From assembly GCA_001779925.1 (NCBI GenBank), contig MFEK01000003.1, forward strand, positions 1-41,750: a stretch of DNA of 41,750 bases, given 5' to 3'. The position numbers and the translations under genes are program-made. Position 1 is the stretch's first letter; each line of letters begins with the position of its first letter. Positions 2 to 41,253 of the stretch are shown piece by piece. Below the pieces are notes generated by a model. The model ran no database searches. It was not told where the DNA came from and worked only from the letters and a program-made list of their open reading frames with translations. This DNA is from Candidatus Doudnabacteria bacterium RIFCSPHIGHO2_01_FULL_46_14. Its GTDB lineage: Bacteria; Patescibacteriota; Doudnabacteria; UBA920; 2-01-FULL-46-14.

Positions 2-1876
2 CCGCCGCCCACCCCTCCCACTCCTCCTCCAACCCCGCCTACGCCGCCGCCTACGCCGCCGCCTCCTGGTCCTCCTCCGCCCAGCCCGACTTTTGATTTC
101 ACTATCACCAAACAGGTTAGGAACGTCTCCGACGGCACAGGATTTTCAAGCTCAACCACTGCCGACCCTAATGAACAGGTAGAATTTCGTATTAGCATCA
201 CCACCTCAGGCAATTCCCCGCAGACGAATTTCCTTGTTCGGGATGTTATCTCTGATTCCCGCCTCACTGTCAATTCCGGCTCGGTGCGCCTCAATGGCAG
301 CACTGTGACCGGTTCTCAGGAAAGTTCGCTTTTCGGTTTCGGCGGCGGCATGATTTTGGGGACACTACCCTCCGGCTCCAACCAAACTATACTTTTCACG
401 ACTACTACCTCTGGCTCTTTCCCCACCGGCACTACCAACATTACCAACACAGCCTTTGCGCAAAGTTCTGAGGTTGCCTCGAAAAATGCTACTGCCACGG
501 TCATAGTGACTGGTACGTCGCAGCCCAATGCGATTCGTGATTTCACTATTGAAAAACGCGTTCTCAACGCCAGCCGCGGGGAATCAAGCTTTGCGGAGTC
601 CACGACTGCCTCAGTAGGCGAGACAGTGCGCTTTGAAATCACTGTGCAAACCTCAGGCAATGCCAGCCAAAGCGGGTTTACGGTCTGGGACAGCCTGCCC
701 TCCCGCTTAACATTTCTTTCCGGGGACCAGCTTTCCGGCAGCGGCGTGAACATTGGTACCATATCCGCCGGTACTACGCGAACCTTTATGTTTACAGCGC
801 GAGTCATTGGAAATGCTTCTGCAACTGTGACCAATACAGCATTTGCCAGAAGCAATGAGGTTGCGCAAAGATCAAATGACGCAGTAGTGTTTATTACCGG
901 CAGCGGGGGCGGTCCGGTCAGTTTCCGCGAACTGAATATTACCAAACGCATACAAAATCTGACCGGTGGAAGTGCCTACGCCTCTTCGGTGAGCGCCAAT
1001 CCGGGAGACCGAGTGCGTTACGAAATCCGCATAGAAACCTTAGGCAATGCTGCGCAAAATAACGTTTTGGTCAGAGACATACTGCCGGCTCGCCTGAGTT
1101 TCTCGAGCGGCGATTCAGGACTCTTCGGCAGCGGTCGCAATCTCGGAAGCCTGCCTGCCGGAACCGCGCGAACCTTTACTTATGAAGCGACCGTGGCCGG
1201 CGCGGATCAATTTGCGGCCGGCGTAACAACGCTTTCTAACAGCGCCTCAGCGCGCAGTGATGAAATCTCAGAGCGGACCGCAGTGGCGCAGGTCTTTGTC
1301 ACCCGTTCTGCGGTAGGCGGTGTTTCCATACAGCAGCGCAAGACCGCCTTTAACATCACCCAAAACGCTAACGCTACTCAGGTTATTGCAAATAGCGGAG
1401 ACATCATCACTTATACTTTATATTTCCGCAACAGCGGCACAGCTAATATGAGCGGTGTCGTAATCGAAGATAATATCGCTGATATTTTGGAACTGGCGGA
1501 AATTGTTGACCAGGGCGGCGCTATTTCTGTAAATTCTACGATTCGCTGGGCGCCGGTTGATGTGCCAGCCGGCACTGAGATCACCCGATCGTTCCGCGTG
1601 CGGGTAAAAAACGCGAGCCTTTTCCCTGCAAATTCCGATCTCATCATGTCCAATGTGTACGGTAACGAAATCCGCGTGCCTGTGGTCGGCAGAAGGCCGT
1701 TGGTTGCGGGTGCTACAGTGTCGCCGCTTGCCCCGGCAGCCCCGCCGCGCACCGGCCCTACGGAATGGATGATTTTCGGGCTGGCCTCCCTGTCTACTGC
1801 CGGATATTGGGTTTACCGCCGCCGTTTTCCGGCACTCTTGCCAAATCCGGTAAAACGTGCTAAACTATTTAGTTAA
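2..1876 (+). CDS. Surface repeat protein, DUF11-like domains (5' partial)
   Basis: The reading frame is open from base 2, so the start lies outside the window. It begins with a Pro/Thr-rich linker of about 30 residues. Several domains of about 110-120 residues follow, each with a motif like KRVLNASRGE, then a VGETVRFEI strand and a TNTAFARSNEV end, as in bacterial DUF11 or SpaA-like beta-sandwich domains. The C-terminus has PPRTG, a hydrophobic segment and YRRRF, the layout of a sortase-type or TM-plus-arginine surface anchor. Likely an extracellular, cell-surface-attached adhesin or stalk protein. It is paralogous to the next gene. A GTG at 284 could be mistaken for the start, but the domain it falls in begins well upstream. 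Confidence 0.8.
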   Translation, partial: PPPTPPTPPPTPPTPPPTPPPPGPPPPSPTFDFTITKQVRNVSDGTGFSSSTTADPNEQVEFRISITTSGNSPQTNFLVRDVISDSRLTVNSGSVRLNGSTVTGSQESSLFGFGGGMILGTLPSGSNQTILFTTTTSGSFPTGTTNITNTAFAQSSEVASKNATATVIVTGTSQPNAIRDFTIEKRVLNASRGESSFAESTTASVGETVRFEITVQTSGNASQSGFTVWDSLPSRLTFLSGDQLSGSGVNIGTISAGTTRTFMFTARVIGNASATVTNTAFARSNEVAQRSNDAVVFITGSGGGPVSFRELNITKRIQNLTGGSAYASSVSANPGDRVRYEIRIETLGNAAQNNVLVRDILPARLSFSSGDSGLFGSGRNLGSLPAGTARTFTYEATVAGADQFAAGVTTLSNSASARSDEISERTAVAQVFVTRSAVGGVSIQQRKTAFNITQNANATQVIANSGDIITYTLYFRNSGTANMSGVVIEDNIADILELAEIVDQGGAISVNSTIRWAPVDVPAGTEITRSFRVRVKNASLFPANSDLIMSNVYGNEIRVPVVGRRPLVAGATVSPLAPAAPPRTGPTEWMIFGLASLSTAGYWVYRRRFPALLPNPVKRAKLFS

Positions 1877-1921
1877 CTGAATTATTAAGGCTTATTTAAG
1901 CGGAAAAATTAATCATAATAC

Positions 1922-3688
1922 ATGCATCCTAACCACATGTTTTTCAAACTTGCCACAGCGATCCTGGTGATTTCTGCGGTGATAATTTTGCCCAATTTTG
2001 ACGGGGCCGGCGCGCAAGACGCGACCCAGCCTTTGACTGTCGAGACAAAGGTTCGAAATCTCAGTAGAGGGGAAAATATTTTTCAGGATCAAATCAATGC
2101 CCAGCCGGGAGACCGTGTCCAGATTCGGGTCAGGGTAAACGCGGGTACTGCGCAAACCGGCATTATAGTTCGTAATGGTTTGCCAGCCAGACTGGCATTT
2201 TCCAGCGGAGACTCCGGCCTTAACAATGCCGGCGGTTTTGCTGCGGGTAATATGAACGGCGGCAGTAATCAAACCTTCACCTATGAAGCGATTGTTACCG
2301 GAAACGAACAAGCAACAATTGTGAATACAGTATATGTTCGCAGTAACGAATCAAGCGAACGCTCTGATAGTGCGGAAATTATCGTTACAGACGTTGCTGC
2401 CCCAGCCCAGATTCAGAACCTCGTTGTCCGCAACCGGGTCATGAACCTTACCCGCGGGGAAACCGAGTTCCAAAATGCGACCTCTGCTTCAGTCGGGGAT
2501 CGCTTGCGCTATGAAGTTTATATCGAAACTCTCGGTAATGCTTCGCAAAGCGGCGTGACGCTTCGCTACCTTATCCCTTACGGTCGCTTTGTGATCGTCA
2601 GCGGCGACCCCAATTTTATTCTCTACGGCTTGGATATTGCCTCCATGAGGCCAAACACTTCTCAAACTGTGGTTTTTGAAGTTACCCTCAATAGCGGTGA
2701 TTCAGATACTCTCAATAGCATTGCACGAGTGTTCAGCGGCACAGTGCCGGTGAAAGACGCGACGGCCACTGTTTTTGTCCGGGGCGGTTCAACCTTTGCC
2801 GTTAAAAATCTTGTCATTGATGCCAAGGTCATGAACCTTTCCCGCGGCGAAGCGAGTTTCAAGGACACCACTGCTGCCTCTGCCGGTGAAAAAGTTCGCT
2901 TCCAAATCAAGATTGACGCTCTCGGCAATGCCCCGATTACTAATGTTGTGCTTAGAAATCCTTTGTCTTCTCGCCTTAGCTTTATGGGCGGAGATTTAAA
3001 CGTTACCAATTCCAGCGGCCTCGGTTTGGGTACCATGACCGGCACATCCAAAACAGTTATGTTTGATGCCCAGGTTGGCAGTGGCGTGGAAACGATTACC
3101 AACACGGCGATTGTTTCCGGAGACGGGGTTTCAAACGCTTCCGACAGCGCCATGGTGACTATTTCTGAAGTTGCGGGCACGACTACTGCTGCCGGACAAA
3201 AATCTGTCATTGCCGTGAACCGCAGCGCTGGCCAGGATGCATCCAAGGTCATTGCCCGCCCGGGCGACGTGGTTGCTTATCAGTTTACTTATCGCAACAC
3301 TTCGAATGCAGCGGAAACTGTAAGAATTGAAACCGATATTAGGGATATCATGGAACTGGCACGCGTCAGTAATACGGGTGGCGCTGTGGTGGACAATGGA
3401 GTGATCCGTTTTCCGGCCGTCAGCCTTGCGCCAAAAGGCGAGATCATTCAAAGCTTTGAAGTCACCGTGCTTAGCGCTTCTGCTATGGGAGCAGCTCAAG
3501 ACCGGATTATGACCGTGAGTTACGGAAACACCTCACTGGTTCAGGTTGGAGCCTCTCAGGTTGCAGGAACGTCCACTATTCAGCCGCCGCGCACTGGCGC
3601 TTCAGAAAATCTGGTGGTGCTGCTGGCAGTTCTGGCTACAGCCGGATACTGGTTCTATCGCAGGAAATCCAGACTACAATTAGCTTAA
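1922..3688 (+). CDS. Exported surface repeat protein, DUF11-like domains
   Basis: 588 residues. The N-terminus is a signal peptide (hydrophobic LATAILVISAVIILP followed by GAGAQDA). It is followed by three beta-sandwich repeats with the NLSRGE motif (near residues 45, 178 and 302), a fourth more divergent domain, and a C-terminal PPRTG, a hydrophobic stretch and YRRKS. The same architecture occurs in the upstream gene, so the pair arose by duplication. Expected to be exported and retained at the surface through the C-terminal signal. No sortase gene lies in the window, so the anchoring mechanism is inferred. No ribosome-binding site is visible. A CATAAT box sits two bases before the ATG, too close to call it a leaderless promoter. 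Confidence 0.85.
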   Translation: MHPNHMFFKLATAILVISAVIILPNFDGAGAQDATQPLTVETKVRNLSRGENIFQDQINAQPGDRVQIRVRVNAGTAQTGIIVRNGLPARLAFSSGDSGLNNAGGFAAGNMNGGSNQTFTYEAIVTGNEQATIVNTVYVRSNESSERSDSAEIIVTDVAAPAQIQNLVVRNRVMNLTRGETEFQNATSASVGDRLRYEVYIETLGNASQSGVTLRYLIPYGRFVIVSGDPNFILYGLDIASMRPNTSQTVVFEVTLNSGDSDTLNSIARVFSGTVPVKDATATVFVRGGSTFAVKNLVIDAKVMNLSRGEASFKDTTAASAGEKVRFQIKIDALGNAPITNVVLRNPLSSRLSFMGGDLNVTNSSGLGLGTMTGTSKTVMFDAQVGSGVETITNTAIVSGDGVSNASDSAMVTISEVAGTTTAAGQKSVIAVNRSAGQDASKVIARPGDVVAYQFTYRNTSNAAETVRIETDIRDIMELARVSNTGGAVVDNGVIRFPAVSLAPKGEIIQSFEVTVLSASAMGAAQDRIMTVSYGNTSLVQVGASQVAGTSTIQPPRTGASENLVVLLAVLATAGYWFYRRKSRLQLA

Positions 3689-3753: not shown

Positions 3754-4881
3754 ATGCTGGACGATAAGACAATTAGCGATTTGCACAAGGCCTTTGCAGG
3801 CTCGCCGAATGGGTTTTTGGTTGTGGATCAGGGCCAGCCCAGTTTTGCGGTTTTACCTTATCAAACATATCAAACCCTTCGACAAGCTCAGGGCATGCCT
3901 AAGAAAAAAATAAAGAAAGTTTTGGTGACTGGTGGCGCCGGCTACATTGGTTCGCATACGGTGAAGCTCCTTTTGGACGAAGGGTTCGAGGTTGTTGTTT
4001 TTGATAATCTCTCTACCGGTAGAAGAGAAGCGGTTGGCGATACGGAACTCGTAATGGGCGATTTGGCGGATAGGACAGCGCTGGATAAAGTTTTCAAAAA
4101 AAATAAATTCGACGCAGTCATTCATTTTGCGGCATCAATCGAGGTGGAGGAGTCAGTGGCTGATCCGGCGAAATATTATCAGAACAATGTGGTCAATGGA
4201 TTGAATCTGCTGGACGCGATGGCTCAGAACGGTGTTTCCAAAATTGTTTTTTCTTCCTCGGCCGCGGTTTACGGAGAACCTGATAAAACTCCGATTCATG
4301 AGGATAGCAGCTGCAACCCGACGAATCCTTACGGCGAGACCAAGCTCGCATTTGAGAAAATCTTGAAATGGTATGCGGGCGCTTATGGCATAAGCTCGGT
4401 GAGTTTACGCTATTTCAATGCAGCCGGGGCGTTAGGCGAGGAAGGTTTGGGCTATGATAAATCGCTGCGGCATACTCATCTCATTCCGCGCGTTTTGGAT
4501 GCCGCGCTTGGCAAAACTGCGGAGATCGAGGTTTTTGGCAAAGATTATAAAACCCCGGACGGCACCTGCGTGCGCGATTATATTCATGTTTTGGATCTCG
4601 CTAGCGCGCATATTGCCTCGCTTCATAAGCTGGAAAAAGATTCCGGCGCGCATGTCTATAATGTTGGCACAGGCAAAGGCTATTCGGTTTTGGAAATAAT
4701 TGACGCAGCGGTCGAGGTCACCGGCCGCATGATTCCCATGAAATTCGCTGACCGCCGGCCCGGCGACCCGGCCAAGATTTTTGCTGATTCGAGTAAGCTA
4801 CAAAAAGAACTCGGCTGGAAACCAGAGCATGACCTGAAATCCATAATCCAAAGCTCCTGGGAGTGGCAGAAAAGCTCGTAA
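3754..4881 (+). CDS. galE: UDP-glucose 4-epimerase with Phd-like N-terminal extension
   Basis: 375 residues; family members are usually near 330. From residue 48 (MPKKKIKKVLVTGG) it is a normal extended SDR epimerase: GGAGYIGS NAD-binding motif, SSSAAVYG serine region, and YGETK carrying the catalytic Tyr and Lys. It interconverts UDP-glucose and UDP-galactose and probably feeds the surface-glycan genes downstream. The first 43 residues (FLVVDQGQPSFAVLPYQTY) resemble the strand-helix core of Phd/YefM-type antitoxins. They are joined to the enzyme by LRQAQG, which is encoded by a repeat also present inverted at 19532-19548. Start 3754 is supported by the -10 box 5 nt upstream. The internal ATG at 3895 would give a conventional enzyme. 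Confidence 0.9.
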   Translation: MLDDKTISDLHKAFAGSPNGFLVVDQGQPSFAVLPYQTYQTLRQAQGMPKKKIKKVLVTGGAGYIGSHTVKLLLDEGFEVVVFDNLSTGRREAVGDTELVMGDLADRTALDKVFKKNKFDAVIHFAASIEVEESVADPAKYYQNNVVNGLNLLDAMAQNGVSKIVFSSSAAVYGEPDKTPIHEDSSCNPTNPYGETKLAFEKILKWYAGAYGISSVSLRYFNAAGALGEEGLGYDKSLRHTHLIPRVLDAALGKTAEIEVFGKDYKTPDGTCVRDYIHVLDLASAHIASLHKLEKDSGAHVYNVGTGKGYSVLEIIDAAVEVTGRMIPMKFADRRPGDPAKIFADSSKLQKELGWKPEHDLKSIIQSSWEWQKSS

Positions 4882-4931: not shown

Positions 4932-6929
4932 ATGCGAGATTTAGAAAAGCTAGCAAAACTAGTTAGGTATTTTAGTTTGACCATGTCGAGCAAGGCCGGG
5001 TCCGGGCATCCAACCTCGTCTCTGTCGGCTACGGATCTTATGGTCAGCCTCATGTTCGGCGGCCATTTTAAATTCGACTTGAAGAATCCCGGCTACCATA
5101 ACAATGATCGGCTGATTTTCTCCAAGGGCCATGCCTCGCCTTTGTTTTTTGCGCTATGGGCTGCGGCCGGAGTTATAGAGGAAAAAGAGCTGGATACCTA
5201 CCGCACTTTTAACTCGCGTCTTGAGGGTCACCCGACATTAGCGTTTCCCTACACCGAGGTACCCACAGGTTCTTTGGGGCAGGGGCTATCAGTGGGCGCG
5301 GGTATGGCTATGAATGCAGAATTGGATAATTTGAATTATCGGACTTTTGTTTTGCTCGGGGACAGCGAAATGGCTGAGGGTTCAGTGTGGGAAGCTATGG
5401 CTTGGAGCGCGCACAACAAACTTGATAATCTCGTTGCGATTCTTGATGTGAATCGGCTTGGACAGAGAGGCGAGACTATGTACGGTCATCACACGGAAAT
5501 TTATGAAAAGAAGGCCGGGGCATTTGGCTGGGAAACGATTGTCATCGATGGCCATGATTTTAAAGAGATAGATAGTGCTTACGAGAGAGCTTTTAAAGCT
5601 AAAGGCAAGCCAGTGATGATTATTGCCAAGACGCTTAAAGGCAAAGGGATTTCGTTTATAGAAGACAAGGACGGCAAGCATGGAGTGGCTTTAAAGCAGG
5701 ATGAATTGGAAAAAGCGTTAGGAGAATTGGGGGAAGTGGATTTGCAGATTCGTGGCGGGATTGTTTTACCCGAGAATGTTGAATATGGAATATCGAATAT
5801 TGAACAAAAACCGACAACCTACCAGCTACAACCTACCAGCTATCCCTTTGACAAACCCGTGGCCACCCGCAAAGCTTACGGCAACGCCTTAAATCGAATT
5901 TATCCGAAGCATCCGAACATGATTGTCCTCGATGCTGAGGTTTCGAACTCTACGTTTGCGGAAATTTTTGGCAAAGCTCATCCGGAAAGATTCCTCGAGA
6001 TGTTTATTGCCGAACAAAATATGGTGGGGGTTGCTCTGGGTCTTGCAAGGCGCGGCAAATTGCCGTTTGTGTCCACGTTTGCCGCATTTTTTTCACGGGC
6101 GTTCGATCAAATCCGCATGAGCGGGTACGCGAGCGCCAATATCAAATTCTGCGGTTCGCATGCTGGCGTTTCCATAGGCGAGGACGGTGCTTCGCAAATG
6201 GGTCTTGAAGATATTGCCATGTTTCGCACTATTCAAAATTCTGTAGTGCTATATCCTTCGGACGCAGTCTCTGCTGAAAAATTAGTAGAGGCAGCAGCCG
6301 AACATGAGGGATTGGTCTACATCCGCACCACGCGCAAAGATACTCCGATAATTTATTCACCCCTCCCTAACCCTCCCCCTCAAGGGGAGGGAAATACAAA
6401 AGACAGTTCCTCCCCCTTGCCGGGGTCCCCCAAAAACGTACTCGGTTTTGGGGTAGGCTTGAGGGGGGAGGATGAGGTGGGGGTGAGGCATGAATTTCGA
6501 ATTGGAGGTTCCTGTACACTGAAGTCGTCAGACAAAGATGTCGCAACAGTTATTGGTGTAGGCGTAACCCTGCACGAAGCCCTAAAAGCCTATGAGGAAT
6601 TGAAAAAAGAAGGTATAATGATTCGGGTGATTGATCTTTATAGTGTGAAGCCTTTGGATATTGAAACCCTGAAAAAAGCAGTAGCCGAAACGAAAGCTAT
6701 CATTACTGTCGAGGACCACTACCCCGAAGGCGGCATTGGCGAAGCAGTGGCGAGCGCGCTGACTTCGTTCCCTCCCCTTGAGGGGGAGGGCAAGGGAGGG
6801 GTGAGATTCGTATCTCTCGCCGTCTGCAAACTCCCGCGTTCTGGCAAGCCAGACGAACTCCTCAATTATGAAGAAATAAATTCAAGCGCGATTGTAAAAA
6901 AAGTTAGAGAAATGGCCGATAATGGTTGA
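4932..6929 (+). CDS. tkt: Transketolase with three in-frame repeat insertions
   Basis: 665 residues, N- and C-terminal halves in one chain. It moves two-carbon units between sugar phosphates in the non-oxidative pentose phosphate pathway using thiamine diphosphate. Visible motifs are SGHPTSS, SKGHASP, the cofactor site GDSEMAEGS, and the pyrimidine domain with FIAEQNMVGVALGLA. Three segments look foreign: residues about 281-305 (NVEYGISNIEQ plus TTYQLQPTSY), about 476-519 (a 130-bp GC-rich element), and about 613-624 (a short element of the same family). All keep the frame and lie at domain or loop borders. The start is set by the -10 box 6 nt upstream. The 3' end overlaps the next ORF by 8 nt. 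Confidence 0.95.
   Translation: MRDLEKLAKLVRYFSLTMSSKAGSGHPTSSLSATDLMVSLMFGGHFKFDLKNPGYHNNDRLIFSKGHASPLFFALWAAAGVIEEKELDTYRTFNSRLEGHPTLAFPYTEVPTGSLGQGLSVGAGMAMNAELDNLNYRTFVLLGDSEMAEGSVWEAMAWSAHNKLDNLVAILDVNRLGQRGETMYGHHTEIYEKKAGAFGWETIVIDGHDFKEIDSAYERAFKAKGKPVMIIAKTLKGKGISFIEDKDGKHGVALKQDELEKALGELGEVDLQIRGGIVLPENVEYGISNIEQKPTTYQLQPTSYPFDKPVATRKAYGNALNRIYPKHPNMIVLDAEVSNSTFAEIFGKAHPERFLEMFIAEQNMVGVALGLARRGKLPFVSTFAAFFSRAFDQIRMSGYASANIKFCGSHAGVSIGEDGASQMGLEDIAMFRTIQNSVVLYPSDAVSAEKLVEAAAEHEGLVYIRTTRKDTPIIYSPLPNPPPQGEGNTKDSSSPLPGSPKNVLGFGVGLRGEDEVGVRHEFRIGGSCTLKSSDKDVATVIGVGVTLHEALKAYEELKKEGIMIRVIDLYSVKPLDIETLKKAVAETKAIITVEDHYPEGGIGEAVASALTSFPPLEGEGKGGVRFVSLAVCKLPRSGKPDELLNYEEINSSAIVKKVREMADNG
5781..5804 (+). 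repeat. 24-bp repeat shared with the O-antigen ligase gene
   Basis: This 24-mer is identical to 19762-19785 in the O-antigen ligase gene. It begins GAATATGGAATATCG and is read here as EYGISNIE. It lies in the linker between the two transketolase halves. Confidence 0.85.
6358..6487 (+). repeat. Intragenic GC-rich palindromic element in tkt (full-length copy)
   Basis: About 130 bp. The outer ends CACCCC and GGGGTG are complementary. Inside are CCCTCCCCCT-CAAGGGGAGGG and a second hairpin, CCCCCAAAAACG against CGGTTTTGGGG. Copies with the same inner core occur at 24359-24522 (same orientation) and at 10316-10450 and 39251-39366 (inverted). It is translated in frame. Confidence 0.9.
6770..6803 (+). 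repeat. Short GC-rich palindromic element in tkt
   Basis: CCCTCCCCTTGAGGGGGAGGG followed by CAAGGGAGGGGTGAG. It is translated as FPPLEGEGKGGVR. It resembles the first hairpin of the full-length element. Confidence 0.8.
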
Positions 6930-9602: not shown

Positions 9603-9640
9603 TGTACCATACTTTAAGCGATCGCTTAAAGTATGGTACA
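9603..9640. repeat. 38-bp perfect palindrome centred on GCGATCGC
   Basis: The left half begins TGTACCATACTTTAAGCGA and the right half is its exact reverse complement, with no spacer. It fills the gap between fba and tal and contains the likely tal start. A degenerate second copy is at 40410-40449. Confidence 0.95.
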
Positions 9641-10580
9641 AGAGAATATGAGACCAGCAAATTTAAAAACGAAAATCTTCCTTGATAGCGGCGATCCGGA
9701 GGAAACGCGGGAAGCAATAAAGCTTCTCGGTTTTCTCGACGGGCAGACCACGAACCCGAGTCTTGTAGCTAAAAATCCCGCAACAGCCGGGAAAAAATTC
9801 AGTAAAACGGAAATTTTGGATTTTTACAAAGGCGTAGTACAGGAGGTCTCCGGACTAATCCCCGAAGGTTCCGTATCGATCGAGGTTTATGCGGATAGCG
9901 GTACGAGTTTTTCGGAAATGCTCACACAAGGCAGTGAATTTTACTCTTGGATCCCCAATGCCCACATTAAATACCCGACAACCACCGAGGGCTTGGCTGC
10001 CGCCGAACTTTCCGTAAAGAAGGGCATGAGAGTAAATATGACCTTGGTTTTTTCGCAGGAGCAGGCGACCGCGGTTTACGCGGCCACCAGAGGGGCGCAA
10101 AAAGGCCAAGTGTTTTTGTCGCCGTTTGTGGGGCGCCTCGATGACCTTGGGCAGAACGGCATGGATTTGATTAAGAATATTATTGAGATGTATCAGGATT
10201 CAGATCACCATGTCGAGGTTTTGACGGCCAGCGTGAGGAGCGTAGAGCATATGCGCCAAGCTTTGGAATTGGGAAGCGATATTGTTACAGCGCCGCTGAA
10301 GATTTTGAAAGAATTCGCCCCCCACCTAACCTCCCCCACTCAGCCTACCCCAAAAGCGATTACGCTTTCGGGGGACCCCGGCAAGGGGGGAGGAAAGAAT
10401 ACGGGGGATTACCTTCCTCCTGGTGGGAAGGGATTGAGGGAGGAGGGTAATTTAAAACCTATTCATTATGAAGAATTGGATATTAACCGGGACTGGCGCG
10501 AGTTTAACATCAAACATGACCTGACTGACAAAGGCATCGAAAAGTTCGCAGCCGATTGGAATTCTCTAATTAAATCATAA
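9633..10580 (+). CDS. tal: Transaldolase with an in-frame repeat insertion
   Basis: 315 residues. Transfers a dihydroxyacetone unit between sugar phosphates in the non-oxidative pentose phosphate pathway, pairing with the transketolase upstream. Motifs: FLDSGDPEE near the start, GQTTNPSL, and HIKYPTT with the Schiff-base lysine. Residues about 228-272 are a GC-rich palindromic element in the inverted orientation, between ITAPLKILKEF-type and HYEELDI segments, shortly before the C-terminal helix region. The ATG at 9633 lies inside the palindrome; an ATG at 9648 (MRPANLKTKIFLD) is an equally good start. No SD. Confidence 0.93.
   Translation: MVQENMRPANLKTKIFLDSGDPEETREAIKLLGFLDGQTTNPSLVAKNPATAGKKFSKTEILDFYKGVVQEVSGLIPEGSVSIEVYADSGTSFSEMLTQGSEFYSWIPNAHIKYPTTTEGLAAAELSVKKGMRVNMTLVFSQEQATAVYAATRGAQKGQVFLSPFVGRLDDLGQNGMDLIKNIIEMYQDSDHHVEVLTASVRSVEHMRQALELGSDIVTAPLKILKEFAPHLTSPTQPTPKAITLSGDPGKGGGKNTGDYLPPGGKGLREEGNLKPIHYEELDINRDWREFNIKHDLTDKGIEKFAADWNSLIKS
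10316..10450 (-). repeat. Intragenic GC-rich palindromic element in tal (inverted copy)
   Basis: Contains the reverse complement of the core CCTTGCCGGGGTCCCCC and the CCCCAAAAGCG hairpin seen in the tkt copy. A further segment with CCTTCCTCCTGGTGGGAAGG is appended. Translated in frame. Confidence 0.85.
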
Positions 10581-18455: not shown

Positions 18456-18460
18456 TTTTG

Positions 18461-19930
18461 ATGTTTAGGGCGTTAATTTTGATGGGCGCTGCAGAAGCCC
18501 TGTCGCTCGCCGCATTCAATTTTCCTATTTTGAGTCTGCCGCTAATCGTCATTGCTGGCATTGCCGTGTTTGTTTTGTCCTGGAAAAATTTGGAATGGGG
18601 GATTTATATCTTGTTTGGCGAGTTATTTTTCGGATCCCGCGGGCACCTTTTGGAGTATGATCTTGGGTTTGTTAGTCTTTCACTTCGACTGGTAATTTTT
18701 GCGGCAGTGTTTGTAGCGTGGGTTGCGAGTGGTTCCTCCCCCTTGAGGGGGGAGGTTAGGTGGGGGTGGATTCCTAAAAGTTATTGGTTATTGTTACTGG
18801 TTATCGGCTTTGGAATTATCAACGGGTATCTGCGCGGAAACTCACTCGGCAACATTTTCAACGACGCCAACGGCTATCTTTATTTCCTGATTTTGCCGGC
18901 GGTATTGAGTGTCATAAAAACCCGCGAGCAAATAAATAACCTACTGCAGATCCTGGCTAGCGCGATCGTTATCATTGCTGCCAAAACATTTCTCTTGTTT
19001 GTATGGTTTTCTCTTGGTCTTCCCGGAGTGGCAACAGCTTATCATTGGATCATCAATCAGGATTTTGGAGAAATCACAGGCCATGTGGGAAGCGCATCAC
19101 GCATATTCATGCAAAGCCAGTTTTACGCGCTCATGGGACTGTTTATTTTCAGTTTTTTCACCCTCCCCCAACCCCTCCCCTCAAGGGAGGGGAATTCCTC
19201 CCCCTGGAGGGGGGAGGTTAGGTGGGGGTGGCAAATTTGGCTAATTCTTGCTGCTGCCCTACTCTCGATCATAATGTCCTTATCGCGCAGTTTTTGGCTG
19301 GGAGCGATTGCCGGAGGGATGTTTGCTATAGTGGTCGTTTTATGGCAGTTTCGCGCCTCTTTCAAGGCTTTTTTGGCTCTAGGATTAAAACTAGGAGCAA
19401 TAGCCATCCTGGAAATAGCAATGCTTTATGGGGTAGTAGCCGCGGGCGGCGGGCAGTTTGCAGACAGCGTGAGTAGTAGAACGGGGGATCCGACCAAGGA
19501 GGCGGCGGGTGGAGCACGCTTGTTATTATTGCCTGAGCTTGTCGAAGGTATTAAAGATAATCCAAACCTCGGCGCAGGATTTGGAAAACTCGTGACCTAC
19601 AAAAGTTATCTGCCGGACCGGGTCACGCCCCAAAATCCTGACGGCGCGATCACCAATTTTGCTTTCGAGTGGGGATTCCTTGATATAGCGTTAAAGATTG
19701 GTATTGTGGGATTGTTGGTATATTTGTTGTTTATAGCTCGAATTTTCAAATTGGGTTGGGTGAATATGGAATATCGAATATTGAATATGGGAATGCTAGC
19801 TGCTTTAATAGCTCTTATGACTTTAAACATCACAACACCATATCTCAATCATCCGTTAGGGATTGGTTTTTTGATTTTTCTATATTCTATATTCCACATT
19901 CAATATTCTAAAAATGAATCCTCTGGTTAG
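18461..19930 (+). CDS. O-antigen ligase/polymerase (Wzy/WaaL family) with five repeat-derived segments
   Basis: 489 residues, about 10-12 membrane helices, with the large periplasmic loop (GGARLLLL to GFGKLVTY) typical of the Wzy_C ligase family. Polymerises or attaches lipid-linked glycan on the outer face. Repeat-derived pieces sit in loops: GSSPLRGEVRWGW (about residue 91), LPQPLPSREGNSSPWRGEV (about 233), LPELVEG (about 358), NMEYRILNM (about 434) and FHIQYSKN (end). The last occupies the C-terminus and overlaps the next gene by 17 nt. The start is ATG 18461 after a GAGAGAGAGG tract; a TTG just before it is less likely. Confidence 0.87.
   Translation: MFRALILMGAAEALSLAAFNFPILSLPLIVIAGIAVFVLSWKNLEWGIYILFGELFFGSRGHLLEYDLGFVSLSLRLVIFAAVFVAWVASGSSPLRGEVRWGWIPKSYWLLLLVIGFGIINGYLRGNSLGNIFNDANGYLYFLILPAVLSVIKTREQINNLLQILASAIVIIAAKTFLLFVWFSLGLPGVATAYHWIINQDFGEITGHVGSASRIFMQSQFYALMGLFIFSFFTLPQPLPSREGNSSPWRGEVRWGWQIWLILAAALLSIIMSLSRSFWLGAIAGGMFAIVVVLWQFRASFKAFLALGLKLGAIAILEIAMLYGVVAAGGGQFADSVSSRTGDPTKEAAGGARLLLLPELVEGIKDNPNLGAGFGKLVTYKSYLPDRVTPQNPDGAITNFAFEWGFLDIALKIGIVGLLVYLLFIARIFKLGWVNMEYRILNMGMLAALIALMTLNITTPYLNHPLGIGFLIFLYSIFHIQYSKNESSG
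18733..18770 (+). repeat. Short GC-rich palindromic element in the ligase gene
   Basis: TTCCTCCCCCTTGAGGGGGG then AGGTTAGGTGGGGGTGG. In-frame and read as SSPLRGEVRWGW. Confidence 0.85.
19159..19230 (+). repeat. GC-rich palindromic element in the ligase gene
   Basis: 72 bp (24 codons). CACCCTCCCC with GGTGGGGGTG at the ends, and two inner hairpins (CCCCTCCCCTCAAGGGAGGGG and CCTCCCCCTGGAGGGGGGAGG). Its right part repeats 18733-18770. Confidence 0.87.
19531..19548 (-). repeat. Inverted copy of the galE linker repeat
   Basis: GCCTGAGCTTGTCGAAGG. Its reverse complement CCTTCGACAAGCTCAGG lies in galE at about 3876-3892. Read here as PELVEG and there as LRQAQG. Confidence 0.8.
19762..19785 (+). 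repeat. 24-bp repeat shared with transketolase
   Basis: Identical to 5781-5804 but read in another frame (NMEYRILNM). A related AT-rich segment follows at about 19880-19912. Confidence 0.85.
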
Positions 19931-24064: not shown

Positions 24065-24093
24065 GGGGGCGGTTCTCCGCCTCCCTTTTTTTT
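24065..24093 (+). terminator. Intrinsic terminator after the 23817 gene
   Basis: GGGGGCGG-TTCT-CCGCCTCCC hairpin followed by T8. Confidence 0.9.
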
Positions 24094-24108
24094 GCTCGAT
24101 TTTTCCGA

Positions 24109-24114
24109 TATAAT
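24109..24114 (+). promoter_or_regulatory. -10 box for leaderless GT2
   Basis: TATAAT ends 7 nt before the ATG at 24122, directly after the preceding terminator. Confidence 0.7.
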
Positions 24115-24121
24115 CAGCTTT

Positions 24122-25138
24122 ATGGACTTATCAGTCATCATCGTCAGTTTTAATACCAGAGAAAAATTGCGACAGTGTTTGCGCAGTGTGTTCAATTCGA
24201 ACACGAAATTCAGCTTTGAGGTCTTTGTCGTGGATAACGTGAGCGCGGATGGCTCCACGCAAATGGTGGCTGCGGAATTTCCCAATGCAAAACTCATTCG
24301 CAACGCAGAAAATCTTGGCTATAGTAAAGCCAATAATATAGCAATTCGGAAAATTTTATCACGCCTCCCCAACCCTCCCCCTCCCGACTTCGCCAAGGCT
24401 ACGACGGGCACGCGAGGGGAGGGAAATACAAAGGAAAATTCCTCCCCCTTGCCGGGGTCCCCCAAAAACGTACTCGGTTTTGGGGTAGGCGTGAGGGGGG
24501 AGGATAAAGGTGGGGGTGAAGAGTTATCTCGGTATTTTTTATTGCTCAATCCGGATGTGGAGATCGCGCTTGATACTTTTGACAAGATGATTTCATATAT
24601 GGATAATGATAAAAGTGTCGGCATCGCCGGATGCCGCGTGGTAAAGACAGACGGCTCTTTTGATAAAGCCTCGCGCCGGAGTTTCCCGAACCTGAAAAAT
24701 TCTCTCCTGCATTTTGCGGGATTGAGTTCGGATTACAATCTGAATTTGCCGGACGACAAGACATCAGAGGTAGACAGCGTGATGGGCGCGTTTCTGATGA
24801 TCCGCGGTGAGACTCTGGAAAAAATAGGTCTTTTGGATGAAGCGTTTTTTATGTATGGAGAGGATCTGGACTGGTGCATGCGCGCCAAACAGGCTGGCTA
24901 CAAGGTAATGTACGCGCCGGTAACTACAGTGGTCCACCACAAAGGTTCGTCATCGCGCAAGCTTCCCAAAAAAGCGCTTTATGAGTTCCATCGTGCCATG
25001 ATTGTTTTTTATATGAAGCATTATAGCGCCAATCACAGCGAGCTTGTGAATAGCCTAGTCAAGCTCGCGATTTGGGCCAGGTATTATTTAAAGCTAATTC
25101 AGAATTCATTTCGCAAAGAGAAGTATGTCAGTAAATAA
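24122..25138 (+). CDS. GT2 glycosyltransferase with a nested repeat insertion
   Basis: 338 residues from ATG 24122 (MDLSVIIVSFNT), set by the -10 box 7 nt upstream. Motifs VVDNVSADGS, NLGYSKANN, LLNPDVEI (metal) and MYGEDLDWCMR (catalytic region). It is closest in pattern to the 17519 enzyme. Residues about 80-133 are a 164-bp palindromic element inserted between the helix after NLGYSKANN and the strand leading into LLNPDVEI, next to the sugar-nucleotide site. Membrane-associated transfer of a sugar to surface glycan is likely. The stop overlaps the start of the S41 protease by 14 nt. Confidence 0.88.
   Translation: MDLSVIIVSFNTREKLRQCLRSVFNSNTKFSFEVFVVDNVSADGSTQMVAAEFPNAKLIRNAENLGYSKANNIAIRKILSRLPNPPPPDFAKATTGTRGEGNTKENSSPLPGSPKNVLGFGVGVRGEDKGGGEELSRYFLLLNPDVEIALDTFDKMISYMDNDKSVGIAGCRVVKTDGSFDKASRRSFPNLKNSLLHFAGLSSDYNLNLPDDKTSEVDSVMGAFLMIRGETLEKIGLLDEAFFMYGEDLDWCMRAKQAGYKVMYAPVTTVVHHKGSSSRKLPKKALYEFHRAMIVFYMKHYSANHSELVNSLVKLAIWARYYLKLIQNSFRKEKYVSK
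24359..24522 (+). repeat. GC-rich palindromic element with a second repeat nested in its loop
   Basis: Same core as the tkt copy, but the first hairpin loop contains an extra CCCGACTTCGCCAAGGCTAC and CGACGGGCACGCG segment (about 24382-24414). The following 80 bp match 6406-6486 almost base for base. Confidence 0.9.
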
Positions 25139-37989: not shown

Positions 37990-39873
37990 ATGTTTCAAAT
38001 CAGAAATGCTGATATTGCGAAAATACTCCGCGAGATGGGTGGATATTATCAAATGGAAAATGAGCCGTGGAGGCCCCGGGCTTATGAAAAAGCGGCTGAT
38101 TCGATTGAATCCTTAGACGGACAGGTGGAGCAAATTTATCGTGAGGATGGGCTTAAAGGCTTGCTGGCTCTTGCGGGCGTGGGGCAGAGGATAGCGGGGC
38201 ACATCGAAGAACTTCTCAAAACAGGCAGGCTAAAAGTATATGAAACTCTGAAGAAAAAAATGCCGGTGGATTTGACTCAGCTTACGAGCATTGAAGGGAT
38301 CGGAGCAAAGACGGTAAAGGAATTGTATATCAAGCTCAAAATTAAAAATCTTAAAGATCTCAAAAAAGCAGTCAGTGCTCACAAGCTTTCCAAAATCAAA
38401 GGATTTGGCAAAAGGACCGAGGACAACATTCGTAAATCCCTTGATTCAAAAACTCGCGGCCCACAGAGATATCTGCTCGGGTATATTTACCCTCTCGCTC
38501 AAAGGCTAAAAGGGAAGCTGCAGGCTTCCGGATTGTTTCAGAGTATCGAAATCGGCGGTTCCCTGCGAAGGCGTCAGGAGACGGTTGGTGATCTGGATTA
38601 TTTAGGAGTTGCTGACAATCCCAAGGCGGCCATGGAATTTTTTGTTAATCTTCCGGGGGTTGGACGGGTTCTTGAACACGGACTGTCGAAATCCGAGATC
38701 AAGATGGAACACGGCGGTATTCAGGTTGATTTACGGCTTGTACCTAGGCAGTCCTGGGGCGCGGCGCTAATCTATTTTACGGGCGATCTGGGGCACAACA
38801 TTAAACTGCGAAAGATGGCCATTGAGAAAGGTTGGAAATTGTCTGAGTACGGAATAACTTCCCCCGGCCTCGCTCCTTCCCGAGGAGGGAAGAAAGGGGA
38901 GGTCTTGTTTGGCAAATCTGAGGAAGAGGTTTACAAAAAATTGGGTCTGAAACAAGTGCCGCCTCCAGAGATTCGCACTGACAGCGGGGAGATTGAAGCG
39001 GCTCAGCAGGGCAAACTTCCGACACTAATTGACTACAGCGAGGTGAGAGGGGATTTGCAAATCCAGACCGACTGGACTGACGGGACTGCGTCAATCGAAG
39101 AAATGGCCAAAGCCGCAATAAAGCTCGGCCGCGAGTATATCGCGATAACTGATCATACAAAAACCCTGCATGTGGCTCACGGTTTGGATGAGAAAAGGTT
39201 GATTCAGCAAGGTAAGGAGATAGATAGATTAAATGTGAAATTTGCTAAATCACCCCCACCTTTATCCTCCCCCCTCAAGCCCACCCCAAAAGCGAGTACG
39301 CTTTTGGGGGACCCCGGCAAGGGGGAGGAATTCCCCTCCCTTGAGGGGAGGGGTTGGGGGAGGGTGAAATTCAGAATTCTAAAAGGAGCGGAAGTAAATA
39401 TCTTGAAAGACGGCAGTCTTGATATTGACGATAAAACTCTTTCCAAATTAGATATTGTCGGAGTGTCAGTTCACTCACACTTTAAATTAAGTATAGAAGA
39501 GCAAACGGCGCGCATAATCCGGGCGCTGTCCAACCCAAACGTGGATATATTTTTTCATCCCACGACGAGGATGGTTCAAAAACGTGAGCCCATTGAGTTT
39601 GATTTTGAAGCGGTTCTCAAAGCCGCAAAGAAATACCGCGTGGCTCTGGAAATCAACGCTCATCCCCAGCGCCTGGATTTGCGTGATACCATGATCCGGC
39701 AAGCGGTGGCGGCGGGCGTCAAACTAACAATCGATAGCGACGCTCATGCTCCCATAGAGCTTGACTATATCCAGTTTGGGGAGGCTCAGGCGCGTCGCGG
39801 CTGGGCCACAAAAAAAGATATTCTCAATACCATGCCGGTAGGCCAGCTTTTACAGTATTTAGCCAAAAAGTAG
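37990..39873 (+). CDS. polX: Family X DNA polymerase with PHP domain
   Basis: 627 residues from ATG 37990. Order: 8-kDa/HhH region (LTSIEGIGAKTVKEL, KIKGFGKRTEDNI), polymerase palm (IGGSLRRRQETVGDLDYL, the catalytic Asp pair), then a PHP domain (ITDHTKTL, KGAEVNIL, HSHF, EINAHPQR, DSDAH). Fills short gaps in base-excision repair; the PHP part gives 3' end processing in relatives. PHP motif I reads GDLQIQTDWTDG, where the usual second His of DLxxHxxxSDG is Gln. Two in-frame GC-rich insertions: residues about 292-305 and about 421-459. The start follows a -10 box by 6 nt. Confidence 0.93.
   Translation: MFQIRNADIAKILREMGGYYQMENEPWRPRAYEKAADSIESLDGQVEQIYREDGLKGLLALAGVGQRIAGHIEELLKTGRLKVYETLKKKMPVDLTQLTSIEGIGAKTVKELYIKLKIKNLKDLKKAVSAHKLSKIKGFGKRTEDNIRKSLDSKTRGPQRYLLGYIYPLAQRLKGKLQASGLFQSIEIGGSLRRRQETVGDLDYLGVADNPKAAMEFFVNLPGVGRVLEHGLSKSEIKMEHGGIQVDLRLVPRQSWGAALIYFTGDLGHNIKLRKMAIEKGWKLSEYGITSPGLAPSRGGKKGEVLFGKSEEEVYKKLGLKQVPPPEIRTDSGEIEAAQQGKLPTLIDYSEVRGDLQIQTDWTDGTASIEEMAKAAIKLGREYIAITDHTKTLHVAHGLDEKRLIQQGKEIDRLNVKFAKSPPPLSSPLKPTPKASTLLGDPGKGEEFPSLEGRGWGRVKFRILKGAEVNILKDGSLDIDDKTLSKLDIVGVSVHSHFKLSIEEQTARIIRALSNPNVDIFFHPTTRMVQKREPIEFDFEAVLKAAKKYRVALEINAHPQRLDLRDTMIRQAVAAGVKLTIDSDAHAPIELDYIQFGEAQARRGWATKKDILNTMPVGQLLQYLAKK
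38864..38905 (+). repeat. Short GC-rich insertion in polX
   Basis: CTTCCCCCGGCCTCGCTCCT and CCCGAGGAGGGAAGAAAGGG, palindromic around CTCGCTCCTTCCCGAG, read as SPGLAPSRGGKKGE. Near the end of the polymerase domain. Confidence 0.65.
39251..39366 (-). repeat. Intragenic GC-rich palindromic element in polX (inverted copy)
   Basis: Inverted copy of the tkt and GT2 core (GGGGACCCCGGCAAGGGGGA), then a CCCCTCCCTTGAGGGGAGGGG hairpin. CACCCCC and AGGGTG at the ends. In frame. Confidence 0.9.
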
Positions 39874-39942
39874 TTTTGGCTAACTGTAGCGAAACTCAGA
39901 TTTCTTTTTGGCTTGTTTAAGCCAAAAGTAGCCCTAGAGGCC

Positions 39943-39971
39943 TTGACGGGAGCGCCAAAAAGGGGTAATAT
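39943..39971 (+). promoter_or_regulatory. Sigma70-type promoter of a candidate sRNA
   Basis: TTGACG (39943-39948), 17 nt, TAATAT (39966-39971). No good ORF with a start signal follows. Confidence 0.75.
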
Positions 39972-39977
39972 ATACGG

Positions 39978-40135
39978 TTACGCTGGAAATAGACGATTGT
40001 TCTTTGATACTCAAGTTCACATTCAAGTTTTGTGCCCGTTGAGGAGCGGCGCGCAATTCTATAGAGCTGGCAGCCATGATGCTGTTTGTAGTTATTCAGT
40101 GTTAATAATCTCCTCGAAAGAGGAGCTTTTTATTT
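39978..40135 (+). ncRNA. Candidate small RNA of about 155 nt
   Basis: Bounded by the promoter above and by an intrinsic terminator, CTCCTC-GAAA-GAGGAG plus CTTTTTATTT (40110-40135). An open frame runs through it but has neither an ATG at a sensible place nor an SD. It does not match 6S, 4.5S, tmRNA or RNase P motifs that I can recognise. Contains a direct repeat, TCAAGTT-CACAT-TCAAGTT. It could instead be an attenuated leader for the small genes downstream. Confidence 0.5.
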
Positions 40136-40161
40136 CCCGCCAGAGGCGGGCAAGTCTAGAC

Positions 40162-40235
40162 ACAATTTTGGGCGCTAATTATGCAGGATAATTAGCCAAC
40201 ACTATTGCCTGAACCATGTTGGTGCCCAAAATTGT
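40162..40235 (+). promoter_or_regulatory. Three-way-junction leader RNA
   Basis: P1 is ACAATTTTGGGC with GCCCAAAATTGT (12 bp, perfect). P2 is CTAATTAT-GCAGG-ATAATTAG (8 bp). P3 is CCAACA with TGTTGG (6 bp) around a 15-nt loop. The CAGG of loop P2 can pair with CCTG of loop P3. It ends 13 nt before an AGGAGG site. Confidence 0.65.
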
Positions 40236-40262
40236 TTCTGGAAGCAAAAGGAGGCTTCAAAT

Positions 40263-40361
40263 ATGACAGAGATCACGTTCTGGCTTCACATCCTACGAGT
40301 ATGTTTTTTCATGATCGCGATTGGCACGATAATTCACTTCATTTGGTACTTTCGCAAATAA
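40263..40361 (+). CDS. 32-residue single-helix membrane protein
   Basis: MTEITFWLHILRVCFFMIAI then GTIIHFIWYFRK and TAA. One membrane helix with a basic C-terminus. A strong SD (AAAGGAGG) lies 8 nt upstream, and a structured RNA precedes it. A hairpin (ATGGAACGAAG with CTTCGTTCCAT, 40361-40396) follows the stop. Function unknown. The quality of the translation signals argues that it is real despite its size. Confidence 0.65.
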   Translation: MTEITFWLHILRVCFFMIAIGTIIHFIWYFRK

Positions 40362-40668
40362 TGGAACGAAGTTTTGTGTTTATTTCTTCGTTCCATCTCC
40401 CAAGCCCGGTTGTACCACAAAATAAGCGATCGCTTAAAGTGTGGTACAAATGGATTTAGGAGTTTAGGGTGAAGAAGATAATTAAGAAAGACTATATTGA
40501 TTCTAGATATTATCAATTTATCGCTTTTGCATTTTGATTATCTCAAAGCTATTATGCAAATTGAGATTTCTTGAAGCGATGCTGCGCCCTTCCGTAGCTT
40601 TAGCGAAGAAGGGCTCAGAGTCGTTTACGGAAATAGTGGACAAAATTCAAACAAACAGAGGAGTTCAA
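40362..40668. other. Gene-poor stretch with three inverted repeats
   Basis: Holds the ATGGAACGAAG hairpin at 40361-40396, the GCGATCGC palindrome at 40410-40449, and a GCCCTTC/GAAGGGC hairpin at 40586-40614. A GTG-started 22-codon ORF (40469-40537) is possible after a weak GGAG but not convincing. Confidence 0.6.
40410..40449. repeat. 40-bp imperfect palindrome centred on GCGATCGC
   Basis: Three mismatched pairs. The right half (TCGCTTAAAGTGTGGTACA) differs from that of 9603-9640 at one base, so the two are related copies. Confidence 0.9.
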
Positions 40669-41043
40669 ATGATTAACAGAGGTCACGTTTTTGGGTTCGC
40701 GTTCTTTCTGGGAGCGCTTGCGCTTCCAACCATCGAGAAATTCGGGTACTCTTCATCGGAGGCCGGGGGGATAATCACCGCAGTTTTTCTGGCGACAACC
40801 ATCCTTTCGTCCTTTCGGCTTCGAACCGCCATGCAGATTCTGGCACAGTGCGCTGCTTTGGTGCTGTATGGCTGGTATTCATACGCGGTAATCATAGTTG
40901 TGATGAGGACATCGAGGGTCGGAGCACTTCTACTGTTCGCAATAGGAGTGCTGTCGGCGATTGTCGTCATGTTCGTTTTGATTCCGAAATTCCCGCGCAC
41001 ACTGCCGACGATCCGCGGTGTATCTCCGACCAGAGTTCGGTAG
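40669..41043 (+). CDS. Small four-helix membrane protein of unknown function
   Basis: 124 residues from ATG 40669, chosen for the AGAGGAG site 6 nt upstream; the open frame extends further 5'. Four hydrophobic segments (FGFAFFLGALALP, GGIITAVFLATTIL, ILAQCAALVLYGWYSYAVIIVV, ALLLFAIGVLSAIVVMFVLI), then a basic tail (FPRTLPTIRGVSPTRVR). Not recognised. Similar in size and helix number to the 30671 minus-strand protein, though not obviously homologous. Confidence 0.75.
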   Translation: MINRGHVFGFAFFLGALALPTIEKFGYSSSEAGGIITAVFLATTILSSFRLRTAMQILAQCAALVLYGWYSYAVIIVVMRTSRVGALLLFAIGVLSAIVVMFVLIPKFPRTLPTIRGVSPTRVR

Positions 41044-41074: not shown

Positions 41075-41120
41075 CTTGGGAGCGCAGAACCTTCAAAAGT
41101 TCTTCGCTCCTACTCCCAAG
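41075..41120 (+). promoter_or_regulatory. Alternative-hairpin region
   Basis: CTTGGGAG can pair with CTCCCAAG (41113-41120). The overlapping GGAGCG..AGAAC can instead pair with GTTCT..CGCTCC. The two folds share bases. It lies about 135 nt before the next gene and may be a terminator or a switch. Confidence 0.4.
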
Positions 41121-41253
41121 TCCTGGAATTCATTCAAGGTTTTAGGAGTTCTGATTTAGAAATATTTACCGTTTTTTGGCGCCCGACGCCAAGACAAGTT
41201 TCAGCCGCTTGCTTTTCGGGAAAGCAGGTAAAACAATTCCACGGAGGTGGAAA

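Follow-up and report, generated by a model that had tools for sequence, protein, structure and literature searches.

A conserved RNA of Doudnabacteria, most likely a long bulged hairpin, at the start of operon-like islands of small ORFs

How members of the Candidate Phyla Radiation regulate their genes is poorly known. The window, that is, the whole 41,750-nt stretch analysed here (contig MFEK01000003.1, positions 1 to 41,750, of Candidatus Doudnabacteria bacterium RIFCSPHIGHO2_01_FULL_46_14), belongs to a genome of 1.08 Mb (G000). It carries a structured RNA in front of a very small ORF; 5' of both lie a ribosomal-protein/rpoA cluster and a polX-like gene, whose end is at 39873. A sequence-only reading had described the RNA as a three-way junction with kissing loops, riboswitch-like in its compactness and of no recognised class, had suspected a regulatory island with an sRNA just upstream, and had named a covariance-model search for homologues as the check. 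The locus raises the question of whether this RNA is conserved, in which fold, and what it does for the genes behind it. In the literature covered, with most subscription papers and preprints outside its scope, no paper dealt with riboswitches and Doudnabacteria together, or with structured noncoding RNA and the candidate phyla radiation.

The stems described earlier were present between 40162 and 40235 on the + strand. P1, as read from the sequence, paired ACAATTTTGGGC (40162-40173) with GCCCAAAATTGT (40224-40235) over 12 bp with no mismatch, and an outward extension was possible via 40155-40160/40237-40242. P2 comprised 8 bp (GCTAATTA, 40174-40181, with TAATTAGC, 40189-40196), and P3 5 bp (CAACA, 40197-40201, with TGTTG, 40217-40221), the sixth pair of P3 being in competition with P2. 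The motifs proposed to kiss were CAGG at 40184-40187 and CCTG at 40208-40211. The MFE of the 89-nt element was -40.5, compared with -17.6 ± 2.8 in dinucleotide shuffles (z -8.2; 0/300), while the whole 200 nt of the earlier description reached a z of only -2.1. The stable fold of the window copy was a single long hairpin, in which CAGG:CCTG formed an ordinary nested helix and not a junction. From homologues, covariation and folds, this RNA, hereafter the rod, was placed at 40155..40242 (+), with a base stem (40155-40173/40224-40242), an a:c helix, the CAGG:CCTG helix and an apical hairpin. The SD site AGGAGG (40249-40254, +) and the tiny membrane ORF (32 aa, 40263-40361, +) were found 3' of the RNA, as had been stated. 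The SD site lay in a small local hairpin, GAAGC..GCTTC. Since it showed no pairing with the rod in the predicted fold of the window copy, the rod is no obvious translational switch.

The search for homologues was rewarded. About 30 rod copies, including reduced and variant ones, were found with covariance models in 13 of 49 genomes of the Doudnabacteria, a group of ultra-small bacteria; this count leaves out weak R3 matches in family f2 and in G040. A DNA search of 60 relatives gave copies in G002, which belongs to another genus of the same family, and the first covariance model added a strongly diverged copy in G001. The second model, run on 380 genomes of the phylum, gained G003 and G024 and gave no match outside the Doudnabacteria order in that sample. 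The third, run on the 49 genomes of the order (the class-level search covered the same 49), gave clear matches throughout family f1 (four genomes) and in nine genomes of family f3, and no convincing rod in families f2, f4 and f5. A weak, reduced copy (R1, R2 and R3 matches, E about 0.002-0.02) stands in the window itself at 40569..40634 (+), ahead of the next ORF. No family of Rfam 15 matched the rod at the gathering cut-off or at relaxed E-values, which bears out the earlier remark that no known class applies; relaxed matches were miRNA models fitting a palindrome by chance. No match to the f1 rod pattern was found in viral contigs. Sequence and structure make the rod a new RNA family; its regulatory arrangements are of known kinds.

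The fold was judged by covariation. In 11 copies of the base stem, nine pairs had changed on both sides and 90% of cells were paired, and swapping whole 3' strands among the copies gave equal pairing in none of 2000 trials. One position, mispaired in 7 of the 11 copies, is a conserved internal mismatch. Covariation was also seen between the G-rich and the C-rich motif, which read CAGG:CCTG in f1, AAGG:CCTT or AGGG:CCCT in f3, and ACGG:CCGT in one subclass. Almost all full-length copies had the rod as their most stable fold, with these motifs in the nested helix, which was often followed by an A-rich bulge of 3-4 nt on the 3' side and then by a second, apical helix. The latter changed in pairs (ATG:CAT, AAC:GTT, AGC:GCT, AACT:AGTT). 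The paired changes in this helix-bulge-helix motif were read by eye, an automatic motif scan being too loose to serve as a test, with a match in 26% of shuffles. The second helix takes bases that the junction assigns to P2 and its loop, which favours the rod. Moreover, forcing the motifs to be unpaired, as the junction requires, made the fold 3.7-6.8 kcal/mol less stable, kissing bonus excluded. P3 was paired in 58% of the f1 alignment (A3), with no compensatory pair; P2 showed compensatory changes and was weak or absent in several f3 copies. The conserved RNA thus most likely folds, according to these models, as one long bulged hairpin rather than a three-way junction. The junction has lower stability and was out of reach for some copies, which lack P2 or P3.

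The window copy can be drawn with the architecture of a purine-type riboswitch, in which P1, P2 and P3 come with loops complementary to each other. On such a reading, the junction with kissing loops and the rod would be two states, and a ligand would shift the expression of the downstream ORF. Because strand a (40174-40181) is able to pair with either b or c in most copies, the RNA may be bistable; the copy in G001 C27 is near-degenerate between the folds, which lie only 4-7 kcal/mol apart before the kissing bonus, and the compensatory changes of P2 point the same way. Nevertheless, of the three stems that should be conserved and covary together in a three-way-junction riboswitch, P1 did so and P2 did so partly. 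There was no Rfam match and almost no unpaired junction core, and the junction was neither the most stable nor the consistently conserved fold. In addition, neither SD sequestration nor a downstream terminator for a switch to control was seen, and the genes 3' of the rods shared no common pathway. The supposed compactness was contradicted by extra apical hairpins in G002 C62, G001 C27, G024 and G005 and by deletion of the apex in G002 C47 (twice), G024 and the window copy at 40569, with the base stem kept in both groups. A ligand-binding riboswitch becomes less likely because the apex tolerates such large insertions and deletions, and we consider it improbable, a weaker rival than the antitermination discussed below. 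The base stem appears to be the functional part, as reduced copies keep it and lose the apex while others add apical hairpins.

The region 5' of the rod was read in 15 island leaders. In the window, an operator-like palindrome (TTGGCTTGTTTAAGCCAA, 39908..39925, no strand assigned; pattern TTGGCT-N6-AGCCAA) lies 5' of a promoter with TTGACG, a 17-nt spacer and TAATAT (39943..39971, +), which has equivalents in 13 of the 15 leaders. It is followed by GTTCTTTGATAC (39999..40010, +), which resembles rRNA boxA and which we take to be a candidate site; clear boxA-like sites also occur in the G002 C62 and G013 leaders. Then come a strand, TTGAGGAG (40039..40046, +), complementary to the 5' arm of the terminator, and the intrinsic terminator itself, CTCCTC-GAAA-GAGGAG with a T-run (40110..40131, +), which supplies strands 2 and 3 of the attenuator. 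The usual order was TTGGCT-N6-AGCC(AA), a TTGACA/TATACT-type promoter, a strand that complements the terminator's 5' part, the terminator and the rod, with similar operator-like sites 5' of most other island promoters. Strands 1 and 2 covaried among islands: TTGAGGAG:CTCCTCGA in the window, TGTGAGGAGAG:CTCTCCTCACG in G002 C24, GTTGAGGAG:CTCCTCAAC in G002 C62, AAAGAGAGCG:TGCTCTCTTT in G001 C3 and CAGGACCG:TGGTCCTG in G030. Over the 15 leaders the complementarity exceeded that of shuffles (combined chi2 84.1, 30 df); it was strong in 6-7 leaders and weak or not picked out by the automatic search in the remaining ones. That search chose a wrong hairpin as the terminator of G021 and overlooked the pairing strands of G003; both leaders were then read by eye. 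The rod began 0-7 nt after the terminator in 8 of 14 automatically located leaders, to which reading by eye added G021. In the window 29 nt separate terminator and rod, and in G001 C3 the rod precedes the second ORF rather than following the leader terminator. As in known three-strand leader attenuators, a strand pairs with the 5' arm of the terminator, but here the rod follows directly, and no ligand, tRNA or leader-peptide feature was identified. The suspected regulatory island, with an RNA switch just upstream, was found, while the "sRNA" is more plausibly the attenuator leader that belongs to the rod's own transcription unit, in which attenuation presumably operates in vivo.

The pattern TTGGCT-N6-AGCCAA was also seen at G000 C7:78544 and C14:185657 and in 11 other genomes, mostly in intergenic regions and often 5' of island promoters, with some sites adjoining tuf and dnaA-like genes. 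One site (G000 C14:37276) falls inside a coding gene, so the pattern alone does not define an island. A probable second island of the window genome, divergent from tuf, lies at L133 about 400-2150 (minus strand, G000 C14), with the promoter style of the window island (TTGACAATACCGCCAAAAAGGAGTAAAAT) and without a rod match.

The rod stands at the head of operon-like islands, which encode fast-changing small proteins, and occurs again ahead of small ORFs further on. Its copies sit between a terminator or preceding cistron and the next SD-ORF, in the same orientation as the ORFs; one island of G024 has six rods, mostly immediately 5' of successive ORFs. A link with microproteins had been suggested, and this held in general: 16 of 27 ORFs 3' of rods or in islands had a membrane or signal segment by hydropathy, and rods in G001 C3 and G030 likewise precede very small ORFs with a single segment (22 and 39 aa, respectively). 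It did not extend to the 32-aa protein itself, which, by the ORF list and homology search, has one membrane segment and is not conserved, with weak matches and no convincing homologue in 60 relatives. The next island cistron (40669..41043, +) encodes a predicted membrane protein of 124 aa (ORF list, hydropathy). Of ten cargo proteins compared with Pfam, just two had clear matches, one to a FliL domain and one to a DksA/TraR zinc finger; none of eight compared with PHROGs had a match. The FliL-domain protein (Pfam E 1e-21) lies in the window's island just past the window, at L035 1771-2421 (G000 C3) of this small genome. Further, two identical reduced rod copies of G002 C47 have directly 5' of them a pair of related small genes (L045 about 2810-3180 and 3860-4200), which run on the opposite strand and each have a promoter of their own.

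Other modules stand ahead of other island ORFs. One, CTCCCAAG..hairpin with CGATCG..TTTAGGAGTT (40397..40464, +), occurs only in islands of G000, G001 and G002; a second copy of this CTCCCAAG..AGGAGTT module lies at 41113..41150 (+), and the CTCCCAAG..TTTAGGAGTT form was also seen at L035 1642-1680, some copies having an inner covarying hairpin around CGATCG. A third module, ending in AAACAATTC (41186..41239, +), is also found directly 3' of the rod in G001 C3. Island ends carry a long 3' module, CCCGGG..AAGATTC..GGCAAGATTC..CCCAGGAGAGA, whose loop holds inserted palindromic repeats; similar copies lie at L035 2636-2750, L045 2520-2645 and L047 4425-4580. GA/CT-rich palindromic repeats were also seen, apparently in frame, within conserved enzyme genes of the window (polX 39250-39370; ORFs 4932-6929, 9633-10580, 18458-19930 and 24092-25138), giving peptides like SPPPLSSPLKPTPK..GDPGKGEEFPSLEGRGWG and reminiscent of Rickettsia palindromic elements; similar repeats occur in island loops of G002.

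An imperfect palindrome repeated among unrelated small ORFs, at which G002 contigs break, could be a DNA-level element, MITE-like or of integron type (attC-like), that moves genes and whose RNA fold is incidental. Against this, the modules occur only in islands, co-oriented with the ORFs, and the position after terminators and before SD sites is conserved. Coding-strand G-U pairs were commoner than A-C mismatches in f1 copies, a difference that is not decisive. A MITE was rejected, the confident rod copies being confined to islands in the orientation of their ORFs and not dispersed in both orientations. Such a DNA-level element is doubtful, with a small chance of being right.

The arrangement is most easily pictured as a sequence of events. 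RNA polymerase would start at an operator-controlled promoter and pass the boxA-like site and then the attenuator, where the leader strand could pair with the 5' part of the terminator. The rod would be present only in transcripts that read through. As a long bulged hairpin with most of its conserved information in the base stem, it would act on the mRNA itself as a double-stranded, RNase III-type candidate site, and the downstream small cistron would gain a defined 5' structure right before its ribosome-binding site. A double-stranded processing or stabilising element fits best, since the apex is gained or lost while the base stem stays. Our preferred reading, held tentatively, is that the rod may serve in cis as a stem for processing attenuator-controlled microprotein mRNAs, for stabilising their 5' ends, or for both.

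Intercistronic RNase III sites are known in phage T7 early mRNA, and rRNA has processing stems. Like these, the rod is, by folds and positions, a long double-stranded bulged hairpin between cistrons; its transcripts, like those of rRNA, have boxA-type leaders, and RNase III is encoded in rod genomes. The gene was present in all five genomes tested, but RNase III is near-universal, so its presence lends weak support to processing. The rod, a candidate for such cleavage, differs in its lineage-specific conserved sequence, apical helix and attenuator leader. Against a plain processing stem, the apical helix and bulge are conserved more than a plain double-stranded site needs. A hammerhead type III-like sequence (38 bits, E 1.3e-5, under the Rfam gathering score of 48.5) was found in one genome just 5' of a partial rod in an island (L076 10313-10368, G024 C9).

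The main rival to the processing or stabilising stem is processive antitermination, in which the rod and boxA would load onto RNA polymerase in the style of HK022 putRNA/EAR and let it pass inter-cistron stem-loops. The put RNAs of HK022 are structured nascent RNAs of about 70 nt that act on terminators at least 10 kb away (PMC9378689). The likeness is one of architecture, with no sequence similarity claimed: the rod, too, is a nascent RNA with structure that lies close to the beginning of an operon with internal stem-loops. BoxA-like sites occur in the leaders and, in G024 copies, also after the rod (GCAAGTTCTTTTG), and the later stem-loops lie between cistrons. However, the leader terminator is transcribed before the rod and so cannot be under its control, the rod is a single hairpin where putRNA has two stem-loops, only the base stem is left in reduced copies, and the inter-cistron stem-loops are mostly without a T-run. 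We regard antitermination as rather unlikely. A CsrA-like translational regulator is a further candidate, suggested by ACAGGA in the leader hairpin loop of several islands and AGGA in the P2 loop. CsrA was above the cut-off in just 1 of 13 rod genomes and absent from G000, and one rod subclass has ACGG instead, which makes such a regulator very improbable.

Taken more broadly, the parts might belong to one expression system of Doudnabacteria, a possibility that we put on the unlikely side. Islands of fast-evolving membrane and other microproteins would share a single palindromic operator and an RNA attenuator; their transcription would involve boxA antitermination of the rRNA kind, and rods would divide the messages into single cistrons, helped in one genome by a hammerhead-like ribozyme. 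The gain is an RNA family that can be searched for, together with an operator-like site common to the islands and an attenuator. The rod also points to sets of microprotein genes that lack annotation and are probably co-regulated.
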